Translations under genes and position numbers: made by a program
Notes under the pieces: generated by a model
What the model was told of the DNA's origin: nothing
Databases searched by the model: none
What the model saw: the letters and a program-made list of their open reading frames with translations, nothing else
DNA from: Deltaproteobacteria bacterium
GTDB taxonomy: Bacteria; Desulfobacterota; Binatia; HRBIN30; CADEER01
Assembly: GCA_029262455.1 (NCBI GenBank)
Contig: JAJCZJ010000022.1
Span: 1-64,000 of the forward strand
Direction: 5' to 3'
Length of the DNA stretch: 64,000 nt
Shown here: piece by piece, positions 8,076 to 64,000 of the stretch
Position numbering within the stretch: the stretch's first letter is position 1
How the letters are laid out: every line of letters begins with the position of its first letter

Positions 8076-9860
8076 ATGACGAAACCGGAACACGCTAGTC
8101 AGAATCGTCGGTCGGTTGCGATGATTGTCGTGGCGATCGTCAACGTTCTGATATTGGGTGCTCTGTACGACCACTTTTGTTGGCCTCCGGACGACGGTCA
8201 TTACGCGCATGTGGCGGAGCGAATCCTCGACGGCGAGATTCTGCACCGCGATATCGAGGACTTTCACACCGACAACAGCCACGCGATCAATGTGGCGGCG
8301 CTTGCGTTGTTTGGCAGAGATCTGCGTAGCTTGCGTATTCCGCTGGTCGCGGTGACCTTCGCGCAGTCTCTCTTGCTGTTTTGGGTTTTTCGGACGCGAT
8401 CCAGCCGCACCGCCGGTATTGCCGCCGTCGCGCTCTCCTCGCTCTCCTTCGTGCAATACCTCAATCCGCAACCTCACTGGTATTGCCTGATGTTGGCCGT
8501 CGCCATGGTCGCGCTCCTCACACCACCTCGGCCGCGTTCGTTCGGGCGACTGATGCTGCTCGGAGCGCTAGTCGGAACGACTTTCCTCTTCCGTCAGCTC
8601 ACCGGCGTGCTCCTCGGCATGGGGGTCGTTGCCTATCTGCTGGTCGAGTGTCCTGACAGCTCTGGACGAGAAGAAGGCGGCTTCTGCGGCCGCGCACTCT
8701 TGGTCCTCATGGCCGTAGCCGAGATGGGCTACTTAACCCGCGCGACGGATCTGACGGGGTTCCTCCTCTTCGGCATATGGCCGGTGATCTTGCTGTTGTG
8801 GGCTGCCGTGCGGTCCAGAGCGTCGGATCGAGAAGTTTCAAGAATTCTGGCAGGGATCGTTGGTGGTGCGCTTTTAGCTGGTGCTCCAACCGTGCTGTAC
8901 CACTCGATGCACGGTTCGCTGGCGGGATGGATCCGCGATTGCCTGCTCAGCGCTCTGGAAGTTGAGGCGCTTCCGTACCTGAGTGTGCACCGCTACGCGC
9001 ACTTTGTAAGTACTGCCTTCGACCAACTCCTCTACTGGCGAGAACCGACGACTATCTTAAACAGTCTGTACTGGCTGCTGCTGCCGCTCTTTGGCGTTCT
9101 GAATGGGATGTTCCTGCTCAATCACCTTAGGCACGATCCCGCCTTGAAGTCCGGCGGCGTTGCGCTGCCGTTCATTGCAGCGTTCTACGGGCCGATCGCG
9201 TTGTTCAATCAGATCCCGATGTACTTATATTACGCGATTGGATTGTTGGTTGCCGGTGTCTTGTGGACACGCTCGGCGGACATTCCGTCGCGCGGTAGCC
9301 TTTGGGAGCCGGTGGTGGTTGCCGTGTCGCTCGTGGCGTTGGTGTTTCATGCAGGCCAACCGGCGACGCGAACTCTCATGGATGTCGTTGCAGGAGTTCG
9401 AATTCCGCTCGTCACCAATGCTCGCGTGCCGCGCGCTTCGCTGTGGTTGGAGGCCCGCGTCATTGATATCTACGGCGAACTGGTCGAGTCGATTCACCGC
9501 GAGACGGGCCCTGGAGATCCGATCTTCGTCCTACCGAATCACCCCGAAGTTTACTTCCTGGCGAACCGAAAGAATCCGTTCTGGTTTCCAAATACTTCGT
9601 TGGCGTTGCACAGTCTGAGTGAGCTTGAACGAGTCCTGCAGATGTTGCGCGACGCGCCTCCTGCGTTGGTCATTCATGCACCAAGGGACCGGCACAACAC
9701 GGATAGGTCCGAGGCCATTATGGAAGCCGTGTCCGACGGGTACGATAGGATCGCTGTGATCGGTGAGTTCGTCGTGTACCGAAAAAGGGATCCGGTCGCC
9801 AGCGCCCATATCGCCAGCGCCCATGTCGCCAGGGCGCACCCGCCGGCGATCCGGTATTAA
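8076..9860 (+). CDS. GT-C type membrane glycosyltransferase-like protein
   Basis: A polytopic membrane protein of 594 residues, with about 10-12 hydrophobic segments over residues 15-440 and a soluble C-terminal part. After the first segment comes an acidic motif WPPDDGHYAHVAERILDGEILHRDI, in the place where ArnT/PMT-like (GT39/GT83) enzymes carry their catalytic loop. A polyprenyl-phosphate-sugar-dependent transferase is likely; the substrate is unknown. The C-terminus has three near-identical units (ASAHI-ASAHV-ARAH) from a 15-bp tandem repeat. The start is chosen at ATG 8076; a TTG at 8037 is possible. Confidence 0.7.
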   Translation: MTKPEHASQNRRSVAMIVVAIVNVLILGALYDHFCWPPDDGHYAHVAERILDGEILHRDIEDFHTDNSHAINVAALALFGRDLRSLRIPLVAVTFAQSLLLFWVFRTRSSRTAGIAAVALSSLSFVQYLNPQPHWYCLMLAVAMVALLTPPRPRSFGRLMLLGALVGTTFLFRQLTGVLLGMGVVAYLLVECPDSSGREEGGFCGRALLVLMAVAEMGYLTRATDLTGFLLFGIWPVILLLWAAVRSRASDREVSRILAGIVGGALLAGAPTVLYHSMHGSLAGWIRDCLLSALEVEALPYLSVHRYAHFVSTAFDQLLYWREPTTILNSLYWLLLPLFGVLNGMFLLNHLRHDPALKSGGVALPFIAAFYGPIALFNQIPMYLYYAIGLLVAGVLWTRSADIPSRGSLWEPVVVAVSLVALVFHAGQPATRTLMDVVAGVRIPLVTNARVPRASLWLEARVIDIYGELVESIHRETGPGDPIFVLPNHPEVYFLANRKNPFWFPNTSLALHSLSELERVLQMLRDAPPALVIHAPRDRHNTDRSEAIMEAVSDGYDRIAVIGEFVVYRKRDPVASAHIASAHVARAHPPAIRY

Positions 9861-54720: not shown

Positions 54721-54752
54721 CTCGGTCCTGCGGGTTGTAGCGATCTGTAGTG

Positions 54753-56969
54753 ATGGACCAGAGCGACGCCGTCGAAGATAGCGCCTCCGAGAAGCGTCGA
54801 CGGAGGCGAGAGGGACTGCTGATCTTCGTCCTGGCGGCGACGTTCCTGGTGCTAGCTGTGCTGCAGACTCGGCTGCCGGAGCTGACGAACAGTTCGTCGT
54901 TGACCGGCAACATCATCTTCTTCCTGCTGATCAACCTCAACATCATTCTGTTGGTCCTTTTCGTATTTTTGGTTGCTCGCAACTTCGTCAAATTGGTCGT
55001 TGAGCGCCGCCAGCGAATTCTCGGCGCCCGCCTGCGTGCGCGTTTGGTCATAGCGTTTGTCACGCTCACTCTTTTCCCAACGGCTCTATTGTTTGTCGTC
55101 GCTGAGGGGTTTCTGTCCGAGGCCATCAATAATTGGTTCAGCGTGCGGGTTGAAAGCGCGATGGACGGCGCGATCAAGGTGGCGCACAGCTACTACCAAA
55201 GGGCCGGCGACGATGCCCTGCATCATGCGCTTGGGATGCAACGGGATATCGGGAGAGACGGTTTGCTGGTGCCGGCGCGGCGTGCGGAGTTGCAAGAATT
55301 TGTTGCAGAGCGGCGCCGCGAGCTCAACGTCCAGGTGATTCAAGTGCTGGACCGGGATGGACTGATTGCTCTGGCTATGGACGATCGACTGACCGAGCGT
55401 GAGGTGCGGGTTGGAGGGACCGACCTCGTGTCGGTACTCGATGACGGGATGGACTTTGCCCGTACGCAAAAGGTGCGCGAAGGCGATGTCGTGCGCGGTG
55501 GGGTGCCGATTCGGGAGGTCGACGGTTCTGTAGTCGCAGCGGTTGTCGTTGGCTATTTGGTGCCGAAGCACGTGAGCCGATTGGCGGTCGACACGGCCCG
55601 CCGTTACGACGAGTATCGACAGCTCGGGGTGCTCAAACAGCCGATCGTCAACAGCTACACTCTGACGCTGTTGCTGATTACGTTGGTCGTCTTACTCGCC
55701 GCGATTTGGTTTGGGTTTACCTTTGCGAAAGGGTTTACGGTACCCATCGAGCGGCTTGGTGAAGGCATGCGTGAGGTAGCCCAGGGTAATCTTGGCCATC
55801 GCGCCGAGGCCGGTGGCGATGAAGAGTTCGCCACTTTGTTCTCGTCGTTCAACCAGATGGCGGGGGAGTTGCAGACGACGCACTCCGAGCTGGAGGAGCG
55901 CCGTCGCTATATTGAGAATGTACTGCGCAATATCACGGCCGGGGTTCTGTCGGTTGACGAGAAGGGCGTCGTTGCGGCGCTGAATCCGGCGGCGGGGACG
56001 ATGCTCGGGGTACAACCGGACAAGATTCGTGGTCGCATCTGGTCGGATGTCCTCGATCCAGAGACTTTGGCTCCGTTGCGTAAGCTCCTCGAGGAAGTCT
56101 TCTCGGGCGATCAGCGCCTGGAGTCTCAGGTTAAACTACCCGCGGGGCCGCGCACTGTGACGGCGTGGGTGACCGCAATGCGGCTCAACGATGAGAACGG
56201 TGCACCGGCCGGTGCCATTCTTTTCCTCGAGGATGTTTCCTACCTGCTGCGTGTCGAGCGTATGGAAGCGTGGCGTGAGGTTGCTCGGCGCATTGCACAC
56301 GAGATCAAGAATCCGCTGACACCGATCCAGCTGTCGGCGCAACGGTTGCAGAAGCGCTACGGCGCCGAGCTCGGCCCGGAGAAGGGCGCGTTGTTGGAGG
56401 AGTGCACCAGCACGATCGTCGGCCAGGTGGACCAATTGAAACGGCTGGTCAACGAGTTCTCGACGTTTGCCCGACTACCGGCGATTGAAGTCGCCCCCGG
56501 TGACCTATCGAAGGTCGTCGAGGACGCTCTTGTGTTGTTCCGCGAAGGCCATGGCGGAGTCCATTTTGACTACGTGGCCGAGCCGAACCTCCCGCTGGTG
56601 GAAATCGATTCCGAAGCGGTCCAGCGGGTGGTGGTGAACCTTCTCGACAATGCGGTGGCTGCATGCGAGGGTGTTGAGAACTCACGGATTGAGGTCCGCG
56701 TGGCGCACGATATGCAAGTGGGTGTGGTGAGACTCGAGGTGGGCGACAACGGATCTGGGATTAGTCCAGAAGCCCAGGGGCGCATTTTTGAGCCTTACTT
56801 TTCGACCAAGAAGGATGGCACCGGCTTGGGCTTGGCGATTGTCTCGGCGATCGTAGCGGAGCATCGCGCGTACGTTCGTGTGCGCAGCAATGAGCCTGTT
56901 GGTACGCGATTCTTGATCGATTTTCCGGTTCGTCTGGGTGCTGGTTTACGTCCAGCACTCGGGGCGTGA
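54753..56969 (+). CDS. NtrY-type membrane sensor histidine kinase
   Basis: A 738-residue kinase. Hydrophobic segments lie near residues 22-40, 50-75 and 105-125, then a large periplasmic sensor to about 295, another membrane helix (LLLITLVVLLAAIWFGFTF), HAMP, a PAS domain, and HisKA with His516 in ARRIAHEIKNPLTPIQLSAQRL. HATPase_c follows (NLLDNAVAAC, GDNGSGI, GTGLGLAIV). The architecture is that of NtrY. It starts 32 nt after ruvB and 18 nt before the receiver-LpxC gene, so it is the likely phosphate donor for that protein. Confidence 0.93.
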   Translation: MDQSDAVEDSASEKRRRRREGLLIFVLAATFLVLAVLQTRLPELTNSSSLTGNIIFFLLINLNIILLVLFVFLVARNFVKLVVERRQRILGARLRARLVIAFVTLTLFPTALLFVVAEGFLSEAINNWFSVRVESAMDGAIKVAHSYYQRAGDDALHHALGMQRDIGRDGLLVPARRAELQEFVAERRRELNVQVIQVLDRDGLIALAMDDRLTEREVRVGGTDLVSVLDDGMDFARTQKVREGDVVRGGVPIREVDGSVVAAVVVGYLVPKHVSRLAVDTARRYDEYRQLGVLKQPIVNSYTLTLLLITLVVLLAAIWFGFTFAKGFTVPIERLGEGMREVAQGNLGHRAEAGGDEEFATLFSSFNQMAGELQTTHSELEERRRYIENVLRNITAGVLSVDEKGVVAALNPAAGTMLGVQPDKIRGRIWSDVLDPETLAPLRKLLEEVFSGDQRLESQVKLPAGPRTVTAWVTAMRLNDENGAPAGAILFLEDVSYLLRVERMEAWREVARRIAHEIKNPLTPIQLSAQRLQKRYGAELGPEKGALLEECTSTIVGQVDQLKRLVNEFSTFARLPAIEVAPGDLSKVVEDALVLFREGHGGVHFDYVAEPNLPLVEIDSEAVQRVVVNLLDNAVAACEGVENSRIEVRVAHDMQVGVVRLEVGDNGSGISPEAQGRIFEPYFSTKKDGTGLGLAIVSAIVAEHRAYVRVRSNEPVGTRFLIDFPVRLGAGLRPALGA

Positions 56970-56987
56970 TGTGATTGGAGGGCAGGA

Positions 56988-58247
56988 ATGTCCACGGTAC
57001 TGGTCGTCGATGACGAAAGTGAGATTCGCAGCTCGCTGCGAGGGGTCCTAGGCGACGAAGGGCTCCGCGTTCTTGAAGCGCAGGGAGGGCGTGAGGCTCT
57101 GGATATCGTACGTCGCGAGCATCCAGAACTCGTGTTGCTCGATGTTTGGATGCCGGACATCGACGGTATTGAATTGCTGCGCCAGCTGCAAAGCGAGCCG
57201 CAGCGCCCTCAGGTCGTGATGATCTCGGGGCATGGCAACGTCGAGACAGCAGTCCAGGCGACAAAGCTCGGAGCGTTTGATTTTATTGAAAAGCCTTTTT
57301 CGATCGACGCTCTATTGCAAGTAGTGGGACGGGCTCTCGAAGATGGGCGGGCGCCAGATAGCCAAGATGCGGAGGCTGCGAACTCGAGCGTCGGTGCTAC
57401 CGACAGTCGGCAGCGGCGGCATCCGGAGCGGACGATCGGCAAATCGGTGATCGGGAGTGGGCATGGGTTACACACCGGGGTCCGGTCGGGCCTCATCCTC
57501 AACCCACTACCTCCGGGGCGTGGAATCGTCTTTAAGAACTTGACGACGGGTGCCTCGGTCCCGGCGCATCTCGATTTCGTCGAATCTACCGGGTACGCGA
57601 CGACCTTGCATCACGGCGACATGAGCGTCGGGACCGTGGAGCACCTACTGGCGACGTTTCACGCCTACGGAATCACGAACGCTCTCGTGAAACTGCAGTC
57701 GGAGGTCCCAGTGATGGACGGCTCAGCGAAAGAGTTCTGTGCACTCTTGGAGGATGCGGGTGTCGAGGAGCAGGGTGGTGGGGTCGACGAGATAACCGTC
57801 AGCAAGCGGGTTGCGATTGGTAGTGAAGATCCCGAAGAGGAAGGGATTTCGATCGAACCTGCGGACTGTCTGAGTGTATCCTACACGCTACGCTATCCGG
57901 AACCGGTGGGCACTCAGAAGTATACGTTCGAGTTTCAGGGTCCTGCGAGCTTTCGTGATCAGATCGCGCCGGCGCGGACCTTCGGCTTCGTCAAAGACAT
58001 GAAGGCTATGGCGTCGATGGGGCTTGCCAGCGGCGGTCGCCTCGACAACTGCATCCTCATCGATGATGAGAAGATTGTGAACACGGAGCTACGCTTTCCC
58101 GACGAGCTCGCGCGCCACAAGATCCTCGACGTACTCGGCGATCTATATCTGCTCGGGCGTCCGGTCCGAGGCAAGATCGATGCACGGATGACTGGCCACA
58201 GTGACAACATTGCGTTGCTCAAAGAGATCGCCAAAACGGAGATCTGA
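56988..58247 (+). CDS. lpxC: fusion of NtrX-like receiver domain with LpxC deacetylase
   Basis: One continuous 419-residue gene. Residues 1-118 are a receiver domain with the acidic pair Asp8/Asp9, phosphoacceptor Asp52 (LVLLDVWMPD), Ser80 in VVMISGHGNVETAV and Lys102 in FIEKPF, closely NtrX-like. After a polar linker, residues 148-419 are a full LpxC. It has GSGHGLHTG, Glu218/His219 in GTVEHL, ARTFGF, zinc ligands His377 and Asp381 in RHKILDVLGD, and His404 in MTGHSDN. LpxC commits UDP-acyl-GlcNAc to lipid A. No internal start exists, so LpxC is made only as the fusion. Confidence 0.95.
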   Translation: MSTVLVVDDESEIRSSLRGVLGDEGLRVLEAQGGREALDIVRREHPELVLLDVWMPDIDGIELLRQLQSEPQRPQVVMISGHGNVETAVQATKLGAFDFIEKPFSIDALLQVVGRALEDGRAPDSQDAEAANSSVGATDSRQRRHPERTIGKSVIGSGHGLHTGVRSGLILNPLPPGRGIVFKNLTTGASVPAHLDFVESTGYATTLHHGDMSVGTVEHLLATFHAYGITNALVKLQSEVPVMDGSAKEFCALLEDAGVEEQGGGVDEITVSKRVAIGSEDPEEEGISIEPADCLSVSYTLRYPEPVGTQKYTFEFQGPASFRDQIAPARTFGFVKDMKAMASMGLASGGRLDNCILIDDEKIVNTELRFPDELARHKILDVLGDLYLLGRPVRGKIDARMTGHSDNIALLKEIAKTEI

Positions 58248-59846: not shown

Positions 59847-61235
59847 ATGGCTGATCGACCCGAAGGAAAGGTACCTCCACACAGCGTCGAGGCGGAAGAA
59901 GGCGTGCTGGGCGGGGTATTGGTCGATAATAATTCGATCGACCGTGCCATGGAGATCTTGTTGGCCGAGGACTTTTACCGCGAGTCTCACCGCAAGATCA
60001 TGAAAGCCTTTCTGGAGTTGAATGGACGAGGCGAGGCGATCGATCTGATTACGGTCAGCGACTATCTGAAGGGTCGGAACGAGCTCGACGAGATCGGTGG
60101 TGCGACCTATCTGGCGGAACTCTCCGAGCGCGTGCCGACGTCGGCAAACGTTGGCCAGTACGCCAAGATCGTCAAAGATAAAGCGGTTCTGCGTGCCCTG
60201 ATCACCACCATGAACGACATCTCTGTGCGAAGTTTTCAGGCGCCGGGCGATGTCGAATCCTTTCTCGACGAGGCTGAGCAGCGGGTTTTCGAGATCGCCG
60301 AGCGTAAGACGCGTCCGGCGTTTTTCCGGGTGCGCGACATTGTCGTGGACTCGATGAAGGCGGTTGAGCAGCTCTACGAGAAGCGTGAGCTGGTAACCGG
60401 GGTTCCGACCGGGTTCATCGATCTCGACAAGAAGACTGCCGGCCTGCAGCCCGGAGATCTGATTATTGTGGCCGGTCGTCCGAGTATGGGGAAGACGGCA
60501 CTGGCGCTCAATGTGGCGCAGTACGCCGCGCAAGAGGCCGGGCACGGAGTCGCGGTCTTCTCCCTCGAGATGGGCAAGGAGCAATTGGTCTTTCGTATGC
60601 TTTGTTCTGAGGCCCGGGTCGATCAGTCCAAGGTGCGCGCAGGCTTTGCGGCCGAGCGTGACTATCCCAAGTTGGCGATCGCGGCCGAGCGCCTGTCGGA
60701 GGCGAAAATTTACATCGACGATACACCGAGTCTCGGTGTCCTCGAGCTGCGCGCCAAGGCGCGCCGGTTGTCGCGCGAGCGAGACTCGAACCTCGGCATG
60801 ATCATCGTCGACTACCTACAGCTGATGAGAGGCCCGGTGACGGACAGCCGTGAGCAGGAGATCTCGGCCATTTCGCGCTCACTGAAGGCACTCGCCAAGG
60901 AGCTGCAGGTCCCGGTGATCGCGCTGTCGCAGCTCAATCGCCAGGTCGAGCAACGCGCCGACAAGCGTCCGGTCATGGCCGACCTCCGCGAGTCGGGTGC
61001 GATCGAGCAAGACGCCGATGTGATCATGTTTCTCTATCGGGACTGGGTCTACAACCAGAAAGAGGCCGACGAGCGAGATGCTGAGCTGATCATTGGCAAA
61101 CAGCGTAACGGCCCGACCGGAACGATTCCGATCGCATTTTTCGCCGAGTACACGCGGTTCGAAAACCGCGCCGAAGACGAAGTCGAGTTCGTCGGCGGGC
61201 CGGAGATGGACGGCGACGAAATCGACCGTTTGTGA
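59847..61235 (+). CDS. dnaB: replicative DNA helicase DnaB
   Basis: A 462-residue hexameric helicase: N-terminal domain PPHSVEAEEGVLGGVLVDNNSID, Walker A GRPSMGKTALALNVAQYAA near residue 212, Walker B MIIVDYLQLMRG, and SRSLKALAKELQVPVIALSQLNRQVEQRADKRP. No intein is present. It ends GPEMDGDEIDRL. Divergent from dacA across 160 nt. Confidence 0.96.
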   Translation: MADRPEGKVPPHSVEAEEGVLGGVLVDNNSIDRAMEILLAEDFYRESHRKIMKAFLELNGRGEAIDLITVSDYLKGRNELDEIGGATYLAELSERVPTSANVGQYAKIVKDKAVLRALITTMNDISVRSFQAPGDVESFLDEAEQRVFEIAERKTRPAFFRVRDIVVDSMKAVEQLYEKRELVTGVPTGFIDLDKKTAGLQPGDLIIVAGRPSMGKTALALNVAQYAAQEAGHGVAVFSLEMGKEQLVFRMLCSEARVDQSKVRAGFAAERDYPKLAIAAERLSEAKIYIDDTPSLGVLELRAKARRLSRERDSNLGMIIVDYLQLMRGPVTDSREQEISAISRSLKALAKELQVPVIALSQLNRQVEQRADKRPVMADLRESGAIEQDADVIMFLYRDWVYNQKEADERDAELIIGKQRNGPTGTIPIAFFAEYTRFENRAEDEVEFVGGPEMDGDEIDRL

Positions 61236-61368
61236 TTTCGACGATGACCGGGCGGGAGTGGCCACTGAGTGCGATCAGATCCTAGGCGGGCGCTTCGACG
61301 CGCTGCCCGTCTGCGGCGATGTGTGGGTCAATGTTTCGGCCGCCGACCTGCGATCCACTGACGCGGAT

Positions 61369-61701
61369 ATGGATTGTAGCCTGAGCGCAGTATGCGATTT
61401 CGTTGCGAGTGAACTCTCTATTGCCCCTGGGCGTCTAGATGCCAGGACCAGAATTTTCCACGATTTGGGCGTAGACGGCGACGATGGGATCGAATTTCTC
61501 GAAGCCTTTGCGGACAACTTCGGGGTCGATATGGCGGATTGCGACCCACGGCGGTACTTCGGACCAGAAGGCTTCTTTGACCCACGCGATCTGTGGGACC
61601 GCCTGAGAGCTCGTTCAGCGCGTCCCATCGAGCCGCTCACCATCGAGATGCTCGTTCTGTCCGCGGCGCAGCGTCGGTGGATTGTAGCCATGCCCGAGTA
61701 A
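61369..61701 (+). CDS. DUF1493-like acyl carrier protein homologue
   Basis: A 110-residue protein with an ACP-like helix bundle: ARTRIFHDLGVDGDDGIEFLEAFADNFGVDM and the C-terminal RYFGPEGFFDPRDLWDRLR and PLTIEMLVLSAAQRRW, the layout of DUF1493. The site of the ACP serine (DSL) reads DGD, so it should not carry phosphopantetheine. ATG 61369 is one choice; the frame is open upstream with a GTG at 61321. Role unknown. Confidence 0.65.
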   Translation: MDCSLSAVCDFVASELSIAPGRLDARTRIFHDLGVDGDDGIEFLEAFADNFGVDMADCDPRRYFGPEGFFDPRDLWDRLRARSARPIEPLTIEMLVLSAAQRRWIVAMPE

Positions 61702-61971: not shown

Positions 61972-62601
61972 GGATTGCGCGGCGGTGATCATGAGCTCGG
62001 TTGCGGCCACCGGGTCTACTGCGTTGCCGATGGCTCCGATAATGGCGGCTGTGTCGGCTCCGGCCTTGAGTACTTGAGCGACATTGTTTTCGCTGATCCC
62101 ACCGATCGCGACCAAAGGGAGCGGGCTGGAGCTCGCCGCAGCGCGCAGCGCGTCGATTCCTTGCGTTGGGTCTGGATCGACCTTGCTCTCGGTTGGGAAG
62201 ATTGGTCCGTAGGCGACGTAGTCCAGTGGTTCTTCACGCGCCGCCTTTACTAGCTGGTCCAGGTTGTGAGTGGAGTAGCCGATGATAGCGCCGGCTGGGA
62301 GGAGGTCGCGTGCGGTTTTTGGTGGTAGGTCGTCCTGTCCTACGTGGACTCCGGCGGCGCCGATGAGTTTTGCGATGTCAGCGCGGTCGTTGATGATCAG
62401 TTTGGCGTTGTACTGCACGCAGAGAGCTTGAATTGCGGTGGCCGCTTTCACGAAGGCGCCTGTTGGCGACGATTTCAGGCGGAGTTGGATGAGTGGGAGG
62501 CCGCAGCCGAGAACTTGCTGCGCCAAGTCGACCGGGTCTCTTTCCGGGTTTGTGTCCCCGACGATTGGGTAGATCGGCGAGCCGAAGTTGAACCCGATCA
62601 T
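61969..62601 (-). CDS. thiE: thiamine-phosphate synthase
   Basis: ThiE joins HMP-PP and THZ-P to give thiamine phosphate. The 210-residue TIM-barrel has IQLRLK, LIINDRADIAKLIGAAGVHVGQDDLP, IIGYSTHN, VAYGPIFPTESKVDPDPTQGI and VAIGGISENNV. ATG 62601 overlaps the stop of the NtrC-type gene (ATGA), an unusual partnership. No other thi gene or TPP riboswitch is visible here. Confidence 0.94.
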   Translation of the reverse strand: MIGFNFGSPIYPIVGDTNPERDPVDLAQQVLGCGLPLIQLRLKSSPTGAFVKAATAIQALCVQYNAKLIINDRADIAKLIGAAGVHVGQDDLPPKTARDLLPAGAIIGYSTHNLDQLVKAAREEPLDYVAYGPIFPTESKVDPDPTQGIDALRAAASSSPLPLVAIGGISENNVAQVLKAGADTAAIIGAIGNAVDPVAATELMITAAQS

Positions 62602-64000
62602 TGTTTGTCGGGGTCGTTCGGCGATCCGCCGCTCGCAGATCCTCCAGTTGTAGAACCTCTGGGGTTGATGCCGAGTGCCGTGATCTTTTTTCGCAAGGTG
62701 TTGCGGTTGATTCCGAGCAGGGCTGCGGCCTGGAGCTGATTGCCGCTGGTTTTCTCAAGAGTCATGGCGATCAAGGGGCGTTCGACCATTTCGATCACGT
62801 TTGCGTAGAGATCGGCTTCCGAGCCCGGAGCGCACCCACGCAGCAGTTCGCTGAGGCGCTCGTTCAAAAGGGTGTCGAAGTTTCCTCCGTTCGCGAGCTT
62901 CGGCGCGGGCTCGCTGGTGAGGGCCAGGTCGCGCGGCATCAAAGTTGGGCCGGAAGCCAGAACTGCCGAACGAATCAGCGAATTCTCGAGTTCCCTGACG
63001 TTTCCGGGCCAATCGTACTGGCAGAGTTGTTCGCGAGCCGACGCAGAGATGGCTTCGATCTTGGTGCCCATCTCGCGATTGATCTTCTCTAGAAAAAAGT
63101 CGATCAGCGCGGGAATGTCGCTACGACGCTCGCGCAATGGCGGGACCCGGACCGGCACGACGTTGAGTCGAAAGAACAAATCTTCGCGGAATTGTCCCTG
63201 CTGCACGGCGATATCGAGCGGACGATTCGTTGCCGCGAGGATGCGGCAATTGACCGGGACGGTCTCGCTGCCGCCCAGCCGAGTGACCTCGCGCTCCTGG
63301 AGGACTCGCAGAAGCTTAGTCTGCAGGTCGAGCGGCATGTCGCCGATTTCGTCGAGGAGTAGAGTACCATCTTCGGCCTGTTGGAATTTTCCGGCTCGCT
63401 GATCGGTGGCGCCAGTGAAGGCGCCGCGCTCGTGTCCGAAAAGCTCACTCTCGAGGAGCTCGCGCGGTATGGCCGAGCAGTTCACCGCAACGAACGGGCT
63501 TGTCCAGCGGGATGAGTGGTAGTGGAGCACTTTCGCGAGTAGGTCTTTTCCCGTGCCGCTCTCGCCTTGAATCAGGACGGTTGCCTCGTTGTTCGCGACG
63601 CGGCCGACGGTCTTGTAGATCTCCTGCATCGCAGCGCTACTGCCGACCAAAGCGACTCCCGGCTCGTAGCGTTCTCGAACCTCTTGCTGAAGCCTGTGGA
63701 GGTCGGTCGACATGCGTGACATTTCGAGGGCCCGCGCTGCGATGACGCGGAGCTCGTCGATGTTGAATGGTTTTGTTACGTAGTCGAACGCGCCCTGCTT
63801 CATCGCCTCGATTGCGTTGTCCATCGTGTTTTGTGCTGTGACGATCACAATGGGGCACTGAACACCTTTGGCGCGCGCCTCGCGCAGAACCGTGAGTCCG
63901 TCGTGTCCGGGCATGCGCAGATCGAGGAATGCGGCATCGAGAGCGCGCGATGTCAGGATCTCGAGTGCCTCGGTGCCGGATTCGGCTTGGACGATCGTGT
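62598..64000 (-). CDS. NtrC-type sigma54-dependent response regulator (partial)
   Basis: The 5' end lies beyond the window. The visible part has the receiver with phosphoacceptor Asp in AAFLDLRMPGHDG, IVIVTAQNTMDNAIEAMKQGAFDYVTKPF, and a AAA+ domain with Walker A GESGTGKDLLAKVLH, the sigma54-contacting GAFTGA loop, and GTLLLDEIGDMP. A Fis-type helix-turn-helix (LQAAALLGINRNTLRKKI) follows. The receiver is more NtrC-like than NtrX-like. The gene overlaps thiE by 4 nt. Nitrogen control is likely but not proven. Confidence 0.94.
   Translation of the reverse strand, partial: TIVQAESGTEALEILTSRALDAAFLDLRMPGHDGLTVLREARAKGVQCPIVIVTAQNTMDNAIEAMKQGAFDYVTKPFNIDELRVIAARALEMSRMSTDLHRLQQEVRERYEPGVALVGSSAAMQEIYKTVGRVANNEATVLIQGESGTGKDLLAKVLHYHSSRWTSPFVAVNCSAIPRELLESELFGHERGAFTGATDQRAGKFQQAEDGTLLLDEIGDMPLDLQTKLLRVLQEREVTRLGGSETVPVNCRILAATNRPLDIAVQQGQFREDLFFRLNVVPVRVPPLRERRSDIPALIDFFLEKINREMGTKIEAISASAREQLCQYDWPGNVRELENSLIRSAVLASGPTLMPRDLALTSEPAPKLANGGNFDTLLNERLSELLRGCAPGSEADLYANVIEMVERPLIAMTLEKTSGNQLQAAALLGINRNTLRKKITALGINPRGSTTGGSASGGSPNDPDKQ

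Follow-up and report, generated by a model that had tools for sequence, protein, structure and literature searches.

A receiver-LpxC fusion throughout the Binatia and its proposed role as an NtrY-controlled switch of lipid A commitment

One gene in the window, the 64,000-nucleotide stretch of contig JAJCZJ010000022.1 analyzed here, encodes a receiver domain and LpxC in a single reading frame. This receiver-LpxC fusion is found class-wide in Binatia, to which the source organism belongs, as well as in Nitrospinota, in other Desulfobacterota, and in two more phylum-rank groups. Judged from its sequence, the protein is probably a response regulator that is phosphorylated by an NtrY-type kinase and has LpxC as its output, so that commitment to lipid A would be switched. 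With similar, moderate confidence, the fusions as a whole can be read as an NtrX that was joined to the envelope enzyme of its pathway and later lost its ATPase and DNA-binding regions, such that NtrY would directly switch LpxC in several phylum-rank lineages. In the proposed mechanism, LpxC itself would serve as the output domain: the membrane kinase NtrY would phosphorylate Asp52 of the receiver, the phosphorylated receiver would dock on LpxC or dimerize, and this change of state would raise or lower deacetylation, the committing step of lipid A synthesis. This suggests that a sensor kinase may switch membrane synthesis directly, bypassing gene expression.

The fusion gene (56988..58247, + strand, 419 aa) starts with ATG and is preceded by a Shine-Dalgarno-like GGAGG (56977-56981, +) that lies within the 18-nt gap after the kinase gene. 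Residues 1-121 (56988..57350, +) form the receiver (Pfam Response_reg at aa 4-113, E 1.3e-32), with the codon of the phospho-acceptor Asp52 at 57141-57143 (+). A flexible linker of 25 aa (aa 122-146; 57351..57425, +) stands where NtrX-LpxC relatives carry their AAA+ and HTH domains, and the remainder (aa 147-419; 57426..58244, +) is an LpxC domain with complete catalytic residues and a short C-terminal tail. The match to Pfam LpxC (aa 148-415, E 8.6e-80) is full length and above the curated cut-off, covering positions 2-267 of the 268 in PF03331 at 268.5 bits against a cut-off of 27; TIGR00325 is likewise matched over model positions 3-274 of 297 (238.9 bits against 187.25). The score for the LpxC-FabZ model PRK13188, 190 bits, lies below its cut-off of 465.

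The receiver is of the NtrX type. Among NCBIfam models that bear a receiver, NtrX (NF051870) is the best match (aa 1-121, 128.4 bits, 3.4e-37), and the score falls below the whole-protein cut-off of 600 bits, as expected since only the receiver is present. Neither an AAA+ domain nor a Fis-type HTH was found in the protein with Pfam or NCBIfam, so it is not itself an NtrX and instead probably descends from one. Among solved structures, the receiver is closest to chain 4d6x, an entry labeled as a Fis-family protein (6.5e-27); 5m7n, labeled as a nitrogen assimilation regulatory protein, comes next, and we take both to be Brucella NtrX. The 35 distinct PDB sequences that match the protein (E up to 1e-20) each cover one stretch, either the LpxC side or the receiver.

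A preliminary description of the window had proposed that the receiver and LpxC are both complete and that the gene has no internal start for free LpxC. Asp8, Asp9, Asp52, Ser80, and Lys102 of the receiver and Glu218, His219, His377, Asp381, and His404 of LpxC are indeed all in place. No in-frame ATG, GTG, or TTG occurs between aa 113 and aa 154, which rules out release of free LpxC from this gene by an ordinary internal start. A separate lpxC elsewhere would have spoken against that description, and the source genome (7.34 Mb in 127 contigs, completeness rated at 100%) yielded no second LpxC match. Among relatives in Binatia, an in-frame start codon is present in the linker region of 58 of 80 distinct sequences, with a Shine-Dalgarno-like core in 6/80; such a core precedes the N-terminal start in 50/80. 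The linker region has a start codon in 23/26 sequences of the phylum of G099 (5 with a Shine-Dalgarno core) and in 26/27 from other groups (4 with a core). At the N-terminal start, the core is found in only 2/24 and in 17/27 sequences, respectively. Internal starts are therefore possible outside the class, where the Shine-Dalgarno test says little.

The joint frame is a fixed property of the class. A sample of 98 Binatia genomes contains 92 with an LpxC match, one in each, and reading the DNA at all 92 loci revealed 90 receiver-LpxC fusions in one frame, two loci cut by contig ends (G014 and G060), and no stand-alone gene. One of the 90, that of G075, has receiver and LpxC in frame with the LpxC part broken further on. 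Two of the genomes with the fusion (G031 and G077) are single contigs. The recurrence of the joint frame speaks against two separate genes having been run together, and 90 fusions in 92 genomes rule out an assembly or annotation error. Beyond the class, LpxC matches occur in 20 of the 24 genomes in the phylum of G109, and 19 of these 20 loci are receiver-AAA+-LpxC, the other being cut. In Nitrospinota, the phylum of G105, 65 of 77 genomes have an LpxC match; 62 were examined and gave 54 receiver-AAA+-LpxC, 4 receiver-LpxC, and 4 cut loci, and the remaining three matches (L017, L019, and L022) are all long fusions. A few long forms, such as those of G139 and G180, are cut by the contig at the far end of LpxC. 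The phylum of G099, suspected to be SAR324, has matches in 40 of 45 genomes, and the 30 examined comprise 27 receiver-LpxC fusions and 3 cut loci.

Desulfobacterota, the phylum of G103, includes the class of the window in the taxonomy used. Among 395 sampled genomes, 88 hold 89 matches with 46-60% identity to the window LpxC, in frames of 382-1423 aa. Further matches listed for this phylum show 38-44% identity, most in frames near 280-370 aa, and among them G462 and G418 (441 aa) are also fused; another long frame among those listed is that of G526 (451 aa). The 67 Desulfobacterota genomes that were read, picked mostly for fusion type and with 8 stand-alone genomes of mixed phyla left out, comprise 21 with the long form, 36 with the short form, 2 with the short form plus a stand-alone gene, and 8 with a stand-alone gene. 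At least seven of the 395 genomes have two LpxC matches (G258, G418, G462, G516, G534, G585, and G603). The DNA read from five of them shows a fusion plus a stand-alone gene in G258 and G418 and two fusions in G603, and a fusion was read in G462 and G534. The receiver-LpxC proteins of G418 and G462 (L318 and L319) are diverged, with ~41% identity to the window LpxC, and that of G418 forms a long branch in the tree. The stand-alone lpxC of G418 (L323, on C122) adjoins ntrY, with no ntrX match in the stretch examined, and G462 carries a stand-alone LpxC match and an NtrY_N match on the same contig. These two genomes offer a natural comparison of both kinds of LpxC within one cell.

Conservation of the receiver was assessed in 196 distinct fusions, drawn from 215 fused genes among 269 loci with an LpxC frame. 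Asp9, Asp52, Lys102, and Pro103 are invariant (196/196), position 8 is Asp in 192 and Glu in 4, and position 80 is Ser or Thr in 185 and Cys in 11. A vestigial receiver is ruled out by this conservation of the phospho-residues, and the receiver is likely functional. On the enzyme side, an alignment of 132 receiver-LpxC, 64 receiver-AAA+-LpxC, and 41 stand-alone rows shows Glu218, His219, Thr331, His377, Lys378, Asp381, Asp385, and His404 to be invariant, the window protein included. These are presumably the zinc ligands and catalytic residues, and with the catalytic site complete the protein is predicted to be a deacetylase. Fusions between neighboring genes of an operon are common, and an accident without regulatory meaning, or a faulty assembly, would account for the joint frame without the intramolecular effect, which is itself deduced. 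Such an origin is nevertheless highly improbable, given 90 fusions in 92 class genomes, the recurrence in several phylum-rank groups, and the invariant phospho-residues. In addition, leaving contig-end cuts aside, every member of the fused kind that was read has its receiver.

The linker behaves differently from the domains that it joins. In comparisons of the window protein with five relatives, dN of the linker is 0.54-1.21, far above both flanking domains (0.07-0.29). The receiver has a lower dN than LpxC in four of the five pairs (0.067-0.226 against 0.105-0.290), and the two are close in the fifth, with L170 (0.107 and 0.102). Since dS was saturated or not obtained, dN alone is used and no ratio is claimed. 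Linker length is 20-39 aa across 101 loci in the class (some genomes counted twice), and the medians by group are 28, 43, and 50 aa, the latter two in two sets outside the class. The predicted structure consists of two folded domains with a disordered join (pLDDT 80.8, pTM 0.72), with pLDDT below 50 at aa 121-140 and mostly below 50 in an LpxC loop at aa 333-369. The predicted LpxC part superposes on solved LpxC chains with TM scores by target of 0.72-0.81 and an rmsd near 6, and the arrangement of the domains in the model is uninformative, given its pTM, the flexible linker, and the poor loop at 333-369. A flexible linker of variable length would fit a docking or dimerizing receiver better than a rigid lever.

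Directly upstream of the fusion lies the gene of a sensor histidine kinase (54750..56969, + strand, 739 aa, GTG start), whose stop codon is separated from the fusion start by those 18 nt. It carries all the domains of an NtrY, as shown by Pfam matches to NtrY_N (9.8e-10), HAMP (2.6e-9), PAS_4 (1.4e-14), HisKA (2.4e-12), and HATPase_c (7.8e-23), and the neighboring kinase supposed in the preliminary description is thus present and of matching kind. No NtrY model appears among the best 25 of 87 NCBIfam matches. In a search of the source genome, NtrY_N was found once, at 41.7 bits against a cut-off of 23.2, in this same neighbor of the fusion. In the class, all 88 genomes in which upstream DNA is present have a kinase match immediately before the fusion, and on the strength of this adjacency we infer that the receiver is phosphorylated by its cognate kinase, with NtrY as the putative phospho-donor to Asp52.

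Beyond the class, and again where upstream DNA is present, kinase adjacency is found in 0/27 loci of the G099 phylum, 4/32 of Nitrospinota, and 5/41 of the Desulfobacterota set. The surroundings of an NtrY unlinked to the fusion were inspected in 17 of 21 such genomes. Neither a receiver frame nor an NtrX frame turned up next to it in these 17 (3 of them cut downstream), which points to the receiver of the fusion as its natural partner. NtrY_N is present in 33/33 fusion genomes of a first set and 30/34 of a second, in which 26 matches exceed the cut-off and 4 more fall below it; it was missed in G324, G584, G573, and G498. It is also present in 10/10 genomes with stand-alone LpxC. This rules out NtrY_N as a marker of the fusion and makes its co-occurrence compatible with a link, though neither specific to one nor proof of it. 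The source genome furthermore holds 60 matches to the NtrX model, all below the 600-bit cut-off, and other two-component partners are therefore possible.

The NtrY_N and HAMP domains suggest a membrane kinase, and the receiver might be pictured as an arm that keeps LpxC docked to NtrY, with phosphorylation setting the place of the enzyme and not its rate. A flexible, fast-changing linker would suit a tether, and a LapB homologue of Neisseria is proposed to recruit LpxC to the inner membrane, according to the parts consulted of a 2025 review (PMC12444477). A mere tether, by contrast, needs no Asp52, Lys102, or Asp9 invariant in all 196 fusions, and this arrangement is rather unlikely. Overall, the attached receiver most likely controls catalysis; control of stability or of place ranks behind.

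In a careful tree of 63 LpxC domains (IQ-TREE, LG+C20), the 52 fused sequences separate from the 11 stand-alone ones with support of 100/100, and a quick tree of 114 rows separates 91 fused from 23 stand-alone sequences with an SH-aLRT of 100. By these trees, fused LpxC is one clade. The receiver-only rows of the class fall closest to the stand-alone side in both trees. On the careful tree the receiver-only label changes six times, at least three of them forced by well-supported branches. The receiver-LpxC of G161 (L326) pairs with the receiver-AAA+-LpxC L015 (100/100), as if the middle domain had recently been lost in this one Nitrospinota genome, and L214, L218, and L337 form a second group that mixes receiver-LpxC with the long form (99/96). 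L218 (from G140) is a receiver-LpxC with a 115-aa middle that has no AAA+ match, perhaps a remnant caught mid-loss.

In Nitrospinota and some Desulfobacterota, nearly a whole NtrX is joined to LpxC. Several separate lineages, that of the window included, lack the AAA+/HTH middle. The NtrX model covers L015 at aa 18-450 (model 2-447, 9.1e-75) and L018 at aa 13-445 (model 4-448, 3.1e-79), in each case up to the LpxC part. Tree topology alone cannot separate gain from loss of the middle; because the long forms match NtrX nearly end to end, deletion is simpler than repeated exact insertion, and the middle would have been lost, not gained. In four Desulfobacterales loci with stand-alone LpxC (L026, L028, L031, and L034), the order is lpxC, a gene of 191-198 aa, ntrY, and ntrX; both systems were thus neighbors without fusion. 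The intervening gene of L026 is a DUF4390 gene (8864-9457, +, on a Desulfotignum contig), and ntrY of L034 is split over two frames.

The AAA+ domain of the long forms is degenerate. GAFTGA and the Walker-B DE are each found in 0/64, and a wider pattern count gives 0/88 for both (88 of 94 genomes); by eye, most of the 64 keep the Walker-A shape. NtrX proteins encoded near stand-alone lpxC have GAFTGA altered to GALGHA, GAFPGA, or GAFTKA, and Caulobacter NtrX lacks the motif, as far as the source was consulted (PMC10274813). Since ordinary NtrX is already without an intact GAFTGA, its loss alone is no sign of a lost gene-regulatory role. Even so, the degenerate AAA+ of NtrX-LpxC relatives would be better ground than any one sequence for the suggestion that no transcription step intervenes, and these proteins look like a transcription factor becoming the regulatory domain of an enzyme. 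A canonical relative for comparison is encoded in the window itself, 4.4 kb from the fusion: an NtrC-type sigma-54 response regulator (62598-63914, - strand) with intact GAFTGA and Walker B, which continues beyond the window end. A short frame that by eye resembles an acyl carrier protein (61093-61701, +) lies behind a dnaB-looking frame.

As judged by eye, 35 of the 64 long fusions keep an HTH-like end, and DNA binding might persist in these. It is conceivable that LpxC acts as a sensor whose bound substrate or product alters the receiver and feeds back on NtrY and on the DNA-binding part of the long forms, in keeping with the finding of no other receiver beside unlinked NtrY. This direction of signaling is quite improbable, as the window form has no DNA-binding part and feedback directed at a kinase would be unusual.

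The C-terminus of the fusion bears on a further alternative, in which the phosphorylation state of the receiver sets the amount of LpxC by exposing it to a protease or hiding it, and so takes over from the FtsH degron at the C-terminus of E. coli LpxC. No end resembling LA.....(A/V)(V/I)L was found in the fused frames scanned (fused set only), and the tail after the catalytic His is shorter in fused than in stand-alone LpxC (median 17 aa, n=215, against 30 aa, n=40). In the sections of the review that were consulted, the LpxC level set by FtsH is a known control point in E. coli, and the degron-less LpxC of two alphaproteobacteria is degraded by Lon in E. coli (PMC12444477). Against this stand the absence of the degron from LpxC of other groups as well, according to the same sections (PMC12444477), and the fact that neither a degron nor a protease adaptor was identified in the fusion. 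Control of amount remains a minority possibility, less probable than direct control of activity. In the favored reading, the phosphorylation state would act on LpxC intramolecularly, the effect and its direction alike being putative. Of the direct phospho-switch in the preliminary description, the complete receiver, the complete LpxC, and the neighboring kinase are supported, as they are by the strict conservation of the phosphorylation residues among relatives, and its regulatory effect stands as a prediction. The class-wide spread, the single clade of fused LpxC, and the NtrX-LpxC relatives go beyond that description.

Several known systems resemble the fusion in part. NtrYX of Brucella, Rhodobacter, and Caulobacter shares the receiver family and an NtrY-type kinase with the fusion; NtrX acts by DNA binding, whereas the window protein lacks AAA+ and HTH and has LpxC covalently attached. 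As reported in the portions of the study consulted, loss of NtrYX in R. sphaeroides raises the lpxC transcript 8.8-fold, no NtrX site lies upstream of lpxC, and the authors judge the effect to be indirect (PMC7240162); the review, likewise consulted in part, describes lpxC transcription as inhibited by NtrYX in R. sphaeroides and Caulobacter (PMC12444477). By analogy with this repression of lpxC through NtrYX, we lean weakly toward phosphorylation turning LpxC off. DVU2934 of Desulfovibrio vulgaris, a DNA-binding response regulator, resembles the fusion in being a two-component output aimed at lpxC, which is its single reported target in the part of the source consulted (PMC3333781), but it regulates transcription of a separate, unfused lpxC. 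Stand-alone LpxC of E. coli (FtsH/LapB/YejM) belongs to the same enzyme family and has the same catalytic residues as fused LpxC; it has no receiver and is controlled through a C-terminal degron and proteolysis, as the review has it in the text consulted (PMC12444477), whereas the fused LpxC has no recognizable degron-like end and a separate position in the tree. LpxC-FabZ of Bacteroidota (PRK13188) is a natural LpxC fusion as well, although its partner is a fatty-acid dehydratase and not a receiver.

No report of a receiver-LpxC fusion was found in the literature searched, which did not extend to subscription journals or domain-architecture databases, and the words 'fusion' and 'response regulator' are absent from the text of the 2025 review of lipid A regulation (PMC12444477). 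Proteins that couple a receiver to an enzyme are known; LpxC as an output fixed across a class was found nowhere in that literature. Detailed knowledge of how bacteria adjust lipid A output comes mostly from proteolysis of the E. coli kind, along with some transcriptional cases. Here a whole class appears to hard-wire the committed enzyme to a sensor kinase, which makes the link testable with one protein. The enzyme is an antibiotic target as well, and its built-in receiver may reveal how LpxC activity can be gated in natural settings. In CheB, PleD/WspR, and RpfG, a receiver is joined to a catalytic domain that is controlled by phosphorylation, and we know of no other receiver that has a committed biosynthetic step as its output. 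The outputs of those three systems are signaling enzymes, whereas the output of the receiver-LpxC fusion is the committed and usually essential step of lipid A synthesis.
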